Assembly: GCF_018729255.1 (NCBI RefSeq)
Contig: NZ_CP076060.1
Location: forward strand, 3,322,501-3,386,500
DNA from: Cupriavidus sp. EM10
GTDB lineage: Bacteria > Pseudomonadota > Gammaproteobacteria > Burkholderiales > Burkholderiaceae
Reading direction: 5' to 3'
Length of the DNA stretch: 64,000 nt
This document shows, one piece after another, positions 37,202 to 38,337 of this stretch. The notes under the pieces were generated by a model, which searched no databases, had not been told where the DNA came from, and was given only the letters and a program-made list of their open reading frames with translations. The position numbers were made by a program, and so were the translations under genes. How positions within the stretch are numbered: position 1 is the first letter of the stretch; every line of letters starts with the position of its first letter.

Positions 37202-37210
37202 TGTATGTCG

Positions 37211-37216
37211 CACAAT
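37211..37216 (+). promoter_or_regulatory. -10 half of a promoter formed on IS circularisation
   Basis: CACAAT in the left end. In the excised circle it would stand exactly 17 bp after TTGACA of the right end (38324-38329), counting one CT core, and would start transcription close to 37223. Confidence 0.6.
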
Positions 37217-37223
37217 TCGGTTT

Positions 37224-37376
37224 GGATGCACCAGATCGATGGCCCCATGCTCTGGGCGACAGCCCAAGTTCGAGGGAGAGCGAGGATCGGTGCATCCATT
37301 TCTTGGTAGCGTTTAGCCTAAGCCCGAACGGTTGTAAGGCAGTACGCCGCATTGACACAAGGATGGGACAAGCCGA
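37224..37376 (+). ncRNA. Predicted bridge RNA of the IS110 element
   Basis: Non-coding left end between the predicted transcription start and the recombinase ATG. A 9-bp stem GGATGCACC (37224-37232) / GGTGCATCC (37289-37297) encloses a target-binding loop. That loop holds CAGCCC (37260-37265), identical to the left target flank, and GGGAGAG (37274-37280), complementary to the core plus right flank CTCTCCC. A second loop holds ACGGTTG (37328-37334), identical to the right end of the IS, and ACAAG (37357-37361), complementary to core plus left end CTTGT. This is the guide layout of IS621-type bridge RNAs. Exact ends are inferred. Confidence 0.75.
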
Positions 37377-38327
37377 ATGGATATCAAGGCAGTAGGAATC
37401 GACGTCAGCAAGACGACTCTGGATGTTGACACGCTTCCCGAACGGGGAGCCCGCCAGTTCACCAATGACGAGGCCGGCATCGGCGCTTTGCTGGCCTACC
37501 TGGCCGAGCATAACGGCCAGGGCCAGATCGACCGGGTCGTGCTGGAGGCGACCGGGGGCTTTGAAACCCGGGTCAGCATCGCGCTGGCTGGCGCGGGCCT
37601 GCCGGTGGTGGTGGTCAATCCCAGGCAGGTGCGGGATTTCGCCAAGGCGTGCGGGATCCTGGCCAAGACGGACCGGTTGGATGCGCATGTGTTGGCGCGG
37701 TTTGGCCAGCAGATCCGACCTCCGGTCCGCGCATTGCCCGACGAGGCTCAGCGCGAATTTGCCGATCTGCTGGACCGGCGCGGCCAGTTGGTCACGATGC
37801 GCGCGCAGGAAAAGGCGCGGGTCGTCACGGCGCCGGTTGTGGCCCTCAAGAGCCTGAAGGAGCATATCGAATGGCTGGACGCGCGGATCAAGACGCTGGA
37901 CATCGATATGACCCATGCCTTGCGCACCAGCGAGGCGTGGAAGCAGAAAGTCGAACTGCTCGACACCATGCCGGGCGTTGGCAAGGTGACGGTGTTCATG
38001 CTGCTGGGCCGGCTGCCGGAGCTGGGGCAACTCAATCGCCAGCAGATCGCGGCGCTGGTGGGTGTGGCGCCATTCAACGACGACAGCGGCAAACGCCGGG
38101 GCCAGCGCTATATCCGTGGCGGGCGCACCGAGGTGCGCAACGTCCTGTACATGACGGCGGTTACCGCCATCTCCCACAATCCGGTCATACGGGAGTTCCA
38201 TCAACGCCTGAAAGCGGCTGGCAAACCCTCCAAGCTTGCCATCACCGCCTGCATGCGCAAGATCCTGACGATCCTGAACACAATGGTTAAAACCGGCCAA
38301 CCCTGGGAGAACAGACTGCCTGCTTGA
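37377..38327 (+). CDS. IS110-family bridge-RNA-type recombinase
   Basis: Recombinase of 316 residues. The N-terminal RuvC-like domain has the DEDD set Asp9 (GIDVS), Glu57 (EATGGFE), Asp99 and Asp102 (KTDRLDAH). The C-terminal Transposase_20 domain has [12 protein letters not shown] and the catalytic serine region [20 protein letters not shown], Ser237. These positions are within a few residues of those I recall for IS621 (Asp11, Glu60, Asp102, Asp105, Ser241). The frame is intact, so the element may be active. The stop codon overlaps the TTGACA of the right end. Confidence 0.95.
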
Positions 38328-38329
38328 CA
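38324..38329 (+). promoter_or_regulatory. -35 half of the IS circle-junction promoter
   Basis: Consensus TTGACA overlapping the recombinase stop codon at the right end. It has no partner -10 in the integrated state but acquires CACAAT of the left end when the ends are joined. Confidence 0.6.
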
Positions 38330-38337
38330 CGGTTGCT

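Follow-up and report, generated by a model that had tools for sequence, protein, structure and literature searches.

How does an insertion sequence come to lie at one fixed point inside a REP palindrome? The question is raised by positions 37202..38337 of the window, the whole stretch of 64,000 nucleotides from Cupriavidus sp. EM10 that was analysed, where an IS110-group insertion sequence of 1136 bp (counting one CT core) interrupts such a repeat; this and the features described below in and beside the element lie on the forward strand. The initial annotation took it for a functional programmable recombinase whose natural target is REP-like. That the element is an intact member of the known IS110 bridge-RNA system is well supported, and the observation is largely real. 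The REP target and the bridge-RNA type stand, upheld by the copies of the element, by retargeted relatives and by covariation of the handshake bases; that the recombinase is functional we infer, and one of its four guides had probably been misplaced.

The element and its recombinase

Five copies of the element are present in the genome, on two large contigs. They show no base difference over 1136 bp and have differing flanks, which sets the ends at 37202 and 38337, and the CT cores at the left (37200..37201) and right (38336..38337) junctions are identical in all five. The boundaries and the CT at both junctions are as first described. On sequence grounds, the lack of differences among the copies argues for recent movement of the element.

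The gene at 37377..38327 encodes a DEDD/Ser recombinase of 316 amino acids, which matches PF01548 and PF02371 (3.1e-21 and 1.3e-18, respectively) and the solved IS110 proteins (phmmer E values of 3.7e-40 for IS621, 8wt6, and 6.2e-43 for ISCro4, 9t56). Residues D9, E57, D99, D102 and S237 are invariant across 11 aligned homologues and align with D11, E60, D102, D105 and S241, the catalytic residues of IS621 (PMC11208158), in agreement with the conservation of the DEDD and Ser residues noted before. The DEDD RuvC-like domain and the C-terminal Transposase_20 domain with its catalytic Ser place the protein in the IS110 family, and the non-coding sequence, 175 nt 5' of the ATG and 10 nt 3' of the stop, places the element in the IS110 group and not in IS1111. 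Homologues include a protein of 82% identity named Cupriavidus basilensis and a 76% fragment from Cupriavidus sp. AU9028. Searching plasmid proteins gave 1462 matching records, none of which reached 60% identity, and a scan of viral contigs gave one partial match at 38%.

Target sites

When the sites are rejoined across the core, all five own copies lie in REP palindromes, and the split, always at CCC-CT-CTCCCG, can fall in one arm or the other. In the window the left fragment of the split REP occupies 37184..37201 and the right fragment, CTCCCGCCTTGCGGGAGAGGGGAGCA, 38338..38363, which confirms the reported split at CAGCCC-CT-CTCCCG; an uninterrupted partner palindrome is found just upstream of the element at 37103..37129. 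Two more REP palindromes of the same kind, with starts 62 bases apart, are located at 31701-31788. The right flank is CTCTCCCG in 5/5 own copies, and the left flank is CAGCCC-CT in three, CGGCCC-CT in one and GCTCCC-CT in one (L005), the last being the other REP arm. CAGCCC is not a strict target requirement, given that CGGCCC and GCTCCC also precede own copies. Across the genome, CCCCTCTCCCG occurs at 362 sites (40 for the reversed pattern), RGCCCCTCTCCC at 81 (9 reversed) and GCTCCCCTCTCCC at 169 (0 reversed). Four of the five own insertions fall in the rarer site class, which is a weak preference (∼0.04, binomial by hand).

In the 82% relative, G039, its element is present six times, each time at ...CCC-CT-CTCCC. 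Five of these sites are palindromic REPs, and the sixth (L056), at GCGCCCC-CT-CTCCCCCCC, has no palindrome and fits both half-sites, which favours recognition of the sequence over recognition of the hairpin. Insertion of other copies at unrelated sequences, which had been proposed as the refuting observation, was not borne out: five own copies and five of the six G039 copies are in REP palindromes, and this sixth copy has fitting half-sites. Three G039 copies (L046, L052 and L055) have ∼360 to 376 bp in common beyond the right end and differ on their left sides, as if inserted in a longer repeat or recombined, and they may be non-independent insertions. A 45 to 47% identical IS110 element from the same genus, G014, has all four of its copies (L034, L042, L048 and L053) at [GT]CTCCC-CT-CTCCCGC, where they occupy the other arm of a REP of this kind.

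Loci of relatives that carry the downstream gene (L111 to L129, n = 19) contain CTCTCCC or GGGAGAG somewhere in 13 cases, the motifs being missing from L114, L115, L116, L124, L127 and L129. In 12 of the 19 a near-palindromic REP, judged by eye, lies between the two shared genes; these loci have several hundred extra bases before the shared downstream gene and are not a strictly equivalent stretch. In L117 an uninterrupted REP of like orientation, reading CCGCCC-CT-CTCCCGC, follows the shared upstream gene. A RAYT accompanying the REPs was also looked for. The genome has one Y1_Tnp gene, possibly REP-associated (L137; G000:C1:3246170-3246439), whose surroundings out to 1.5 kb showed one lone GGGAGAG and no CTCTCCC/GGGAGAG pair forming a palindrome.

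Fold of the left end and promoter-like sequence at the joint

The 9-bp stem that had been proposed to close the target loop is present, with its 5' arm at 37224..37232 (followed by a bulged A at 37233 and GATC at 37234-37237) and its 3' arm at 37289..37297 (preceded by GATC at 37285-37288). Its pairing is kept despite two-sided changes in alignments of six and four relatives, the first of which has G476 misaligned. Inside the loop, an apical hairpin, UGGGC-GACA-GCCCA, folds at 37253..37266 and contains CAGCCC in its loop and 3' arm; the corresponding hairpins are GGGC-GAAA-GCCC in G039 and GUCU-GCA-AGAC in L057 and L058, which come from one MAG. Against 200 shuffles of each, the 175-nt left end gave the better fold in most comparisons (z of −2.46, 4/200 as good) and the target loop in all (z of −4.28, 0/200); the donor loop alone showed no advantage (z of −0.71, 48/200). 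No 5' stem-loop precedes the target loop, with 37202-37223 having no stable fold. Rfam, scanned at E values of 1 or less, yielded four matches below threshold, with no bridge RNA among them. The two internal loops carry letters that fit target and donor, which by sequence assigns the left end to the IS621-type bridge RNAs.

A promoter-like sequence at the joint is a further addition to the earlier reading. The best pair in a scan of the joined ends, run without a shuffle control, is a −35-like TTGACA in the right end (38324..38329) and a −10-like CACAAT in the left end (37211..37216, 4/6 consensus letters), separated by 17 bp; it spans the joined ends and would be a promoter only if the ends are circularised. 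Across the 22 elements scanned, the distance from the start of the best −35-like hexamer to the joint downstream of it is 14 bases in four (the window element, G039, L057 and L058) and 21 (14 elements), 22 (three) or 17 (one) in the other 18. For the window's group, we infer a transcription start near the first stem.

Guides and handshake bases across relatives

Homologues were sought in four overlapping sets of genomes, each including the own genome: 148 relatives (8 matching, cut-off of 1e-40), 398 of the family (23, 1e-60), 369 of the class (10, 1e-60) and 399 of the order (6, 1e-85). The covariation set consists of 26 elements, two of them from named contigs, represented by 45 copies with both ends and flanks fixed. 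All listed copies were used for the own element, G014, G038 and G039, and further copies of G401, G409, G301 and G397 were left out. Outside the set, with an end or flank not found or unanalysed, are L035-L038, L043, L044, L049, L050, L060, L059/L130 (one element, with its left end at a contig edge), 13 Vampirovibrio loci, L073, L075-L077, L083/L100, L084, L085, L090, L091, L094, L101, L103, L108, L109, L133 and L136. Across the 26 elements, which have differing targets, the guide letters vary along with the sites.

The right target guide, GGGAGAG at 37274..37280, is complementary to the core and right flank (CTCTCCC), as first noted, and covaries with the site in relatives. Among 25 elements (L057 is without a full right flank), the best-fitting 8-mer, taken from any position in the non-coding end, matches the cognate site at 6.97 of 8 letters, against 5.86 when sites are shuffled, a value reached in 0/20000 shuffles. 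In 18 of the 26 elements the right guide was positioned by its closest agreement with the cognate site, and in 8 by hand.

Both donor guides are also found where they had been placed. The left donor guide, ACGGTTG at 37328..37334, equals the right end of the IS, and a stretch of the own right end follows the right target guide in all 26 elements, with 7/7 letters in 25 and 6/7 in L131, over six versions of the end (counted without a shuffle control). The right donor guide, ACAAG, is located at 37357..37361.

Two handshake bases fit this arrangement and add to the guide reading. In the target loop, C at 37281 is the complement of G at donor position 7, a relation that holds in 25/26 elements (13.3 expected), the miss being G1041 (L131). 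In the donor loop, G at 37362 is complementary to target position 7 (C), which by a mechanical rule holds in 21/26 (10.6 expected). The misses here are G267, G807, G635, G903 and G886, that of G903 being a likely miscall, given that the rule took the first CAAG. For each of the two bases, 0/50000 shuffles reached the observed count.

Chance occurrence of the motifs was assessed with 20000 dinucleotide shuffles of 37204-37376. Single matches were found in 1954 shuffles for CAGCCC, 586 for GGGAGAG, 227 for ACGGTTG and 2981 for ACAAG; the ordered target pair occurred in 9, the ordered donor pair in 4 and both pairs in 0, the target pair in this test being built with CAGCCC, since dropped as the left guide.

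Two observations were made alongside. In the IS110-group loci L104, L106 and L107, the right target starts with CTTGTTA, which we take to resemble an integron attC-type site, and the right guide is UUAACAAG or AUAACAAG. A Vampirovibrio MAG holds 13 closely similar IS110 copies (L061-L072 and L074) with CTGACA as the right flank and TGTCAG in the left end.

Position of the left target guide

The left target guide had been read as CAGCCC at 37260-37265. These letters are present, but they lie in the apical hairpin, and the position does not track the targets in relatives. The guide is probably instead on the 5' side of the apical hairpin, as AUGGCCCCA at 37239..37247 with GGCCCC (37241-37246) as its pairing part; we place it there because both covariation in the 26 elements and the retargeted relative L131 point to the 5' side. 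Six-letter matches to the left flank average 4.51/6 on the 5' side for cognate sites, against 3.81 for shuffled ones (0/20000 shuffles reach it), and on the CAGCCC side 3.33 against 3.54 (19526/20000 reach it). In the first 22 elements the values were 4.46 against 3.76 and 3.35 against 3.59, respectively. The ranges searched, 38 to 20 bases before the right guide for the 5' side and 16 to 6 for the CAGCCC side, were both picked after inspecting the folds of relatives.

Within the close group, where positions can be taken at a fixed distance past AGATCG, the 5' candidate exceeds the CAGCCC position in identical letters in 8/10 distinct element-site pairs; it is lower for CCAGCCCCT, the window's own type (5 against 6), and ties in one pair. 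Taken alone, the window copy would favour CAGCCC. With G-T wobble it is ahead in 10/10. L131 (G1041, 62% identity) is inserted at a different target, CTGTGACCT, with CACAGAG as its right target guide. Its 5' candidate, CAGUGUCCU, matches at 7/9 letters, and the CAGCCC position matches at 0/9, or 2/9 with wobble.

The same system with CAGCCC as its left target guide is the alternative that survives best, and we consider it unlikely. CAGCCC equals the left flank in three of the five own copies, for which it matches 6/9 identical letters against 5/9 for the revised guide (with wobble, 6 against 7 for the window copy); L005 matches the revised guide at 4/9. The AG/GG count leans the same way, with small numbers: three of the four own insertions in the RGCCCCTCTCCC (RGCCCC) class are AG, though the 81 such sites, counted by eye, divide into 28 AG and 53 GG. 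Against it stand the below-shuffle score of that position in the 26 elements and its failure in L131. CAGCCC is moreover paired in the apical hairpin, where L057/L058 have GUCU/AGAC in place of GGGC/GCCC, with one pair changed on both sides, and in IS621 the stem is followed first by the left guide, then by a stem loop and the right guide (PMC11208158). The revised guide matches the core C and sets an A opposite the core T. An A rather than a U at this position, with the core C matched, is seen in the likely left guides of the window element and of several relatives, G202, G428 and G542 among them; other elements have CU.

The shuffles over 26 elements ignore descent. When the elements are collapsed to seven single-linkage groups, the observed values are reached in 568/20000 shuffles for the 5' side of the left guide, 8529/20000 for the CAGCCC side, 8/20000 for the right guide and 1168/50000 for the target handshake; the window's group then includes L131, so its retargeting is uncounted. 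The order of support is unchanged, and its strength is lower.

Proposed mode of insertion

It is very probable, from the sequence comparisons above, that this IS110-group element moves by bridge-RNA-guided recombination and hits REPs through the fit of its guides. It is the AG/GG count, together with the possibly non-independent G039 copies, that keeps us from putting this reading higher and leaves some room for CAGCCC as the guide. The ends of the element would join as a circle, and the joint would create TTGACA-17-CACAAT, from which the left end may be transcribed as the bridge RNA. The first loop of this RNA would pair with a REP arm, AUGGCCCCA serving for GGCCCC/AGCCCC and GGGAGAG for CTCTCCC; the second loop, with ACGGTTG and ACAAG, would fit the joined element ends, and the base after each right guide would be complementary to the other DNA, as a handshake. 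By homology to IS621, the DEDD/Ser recombinase would exchange strands at CT. The REP would be chosen because its sequence fits the guides, and not because it is a hairpin.

Mobility is read from sequence, and the copies might be remnants of an element that is no longer mobile, with no present transcription or movement. We regard this as very unlikely, in view of five copies without a difference, set in differing flanks on two large contigs, and of an open frame that retains all five catalytic residues. Direct recognition of the REP hairpin by the recombinase, with incidental guide matches, is barely credible: although palindromic REPs occupy 10 of the 11 close-group sites (5 own and 6 G039), L056 fits both half-sites with no palindrome, relatives at other targets retain the agreement of guide and target, and the own copies lie in either REP arm.

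Relation to known systems and implications

Bridge RNAs and their covariation have been published for IS621 and thousands of IS110 elements, with REPs as an IS621 target (PMC11208160), and the structure of IS621 has shown the recognition of the core and the handshake bases that adjoin the right guides and pair with the other DNA (PMC11208158). Guided insertion by the window element would share with IS621 of Escherichia coli a left-end non-coding RNA in the order stem, left guide, apical hairpin and right guide, a donor loop, handshake bases, a CT core, a DEDD/Ser recombinase and REPs among the targets. In contrast to IS621, the protein is distant (E value of 3.7e-40), the REP sequence is different, the core T would be left unpaired by the left guide as placed here, and 37202-37223 is unfolded, leaving the element without a 5' stem-loop. 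Such a stem-loop is part of the IS621 consensus and is not given as defining the whole family (PMC11208160). The right guide is 7 nt long, where the IS621 structure has one of 4 nt (PMC11208158).

The ISEc21/ISMch6 seekRNA pair likewise belongs to the IS110 group and has an upstream non-coding region, a circle-junction promoter and natural redirection through changed guide letters, whereas its target lies inside IS3-family transposase genes (PMC11187229). No description of the window element was found in literature titles and abstract openings, a scope outside which ISfinder lies, so we make no claim that it is unlisted. Some of the elements ISPpu9, ISPpu10, ISPa11 and ISRm19 belong to the IS110 family. 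REP targeting by several elements, these four included, was reported in 2006, with all copies lying within REPs at a constant position, as here; ISPpu9 and ISPpu10 are dissimilar and yet agree both in the REP and in the point at which they enter it, which parallels the case of the window element (PMC1525189). Unlike the window element, these have other hosts and other REP sequences, and the available part of their description mentions no guide (PMC1525189).

The mechanism is as published for IS621, REP targeting by IS110 elements is already known, and no new mechanism is proposed. More tentatively, and with some doubt, the window's group may be a trimmed bridge-RNA subgroup, with no 5' stem-loop, a shifted junction promoter, a start at the target-loop stem, a short left guide of about six pairs and the core T unpaired. 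REPs would be a landing pad shared by different, converging guide RNAs, as with G014 in the opposite arm. The compact RNA is possibly useful to builders of bridge recombinases. Natural retargeting of guides becomes readable here: the guide letters of relatives at 82%, 62 to 66% and 42 to 56% protein identity match the sites of those relatives, many of which differ, and the rules of the sites are legible from genomes alone.
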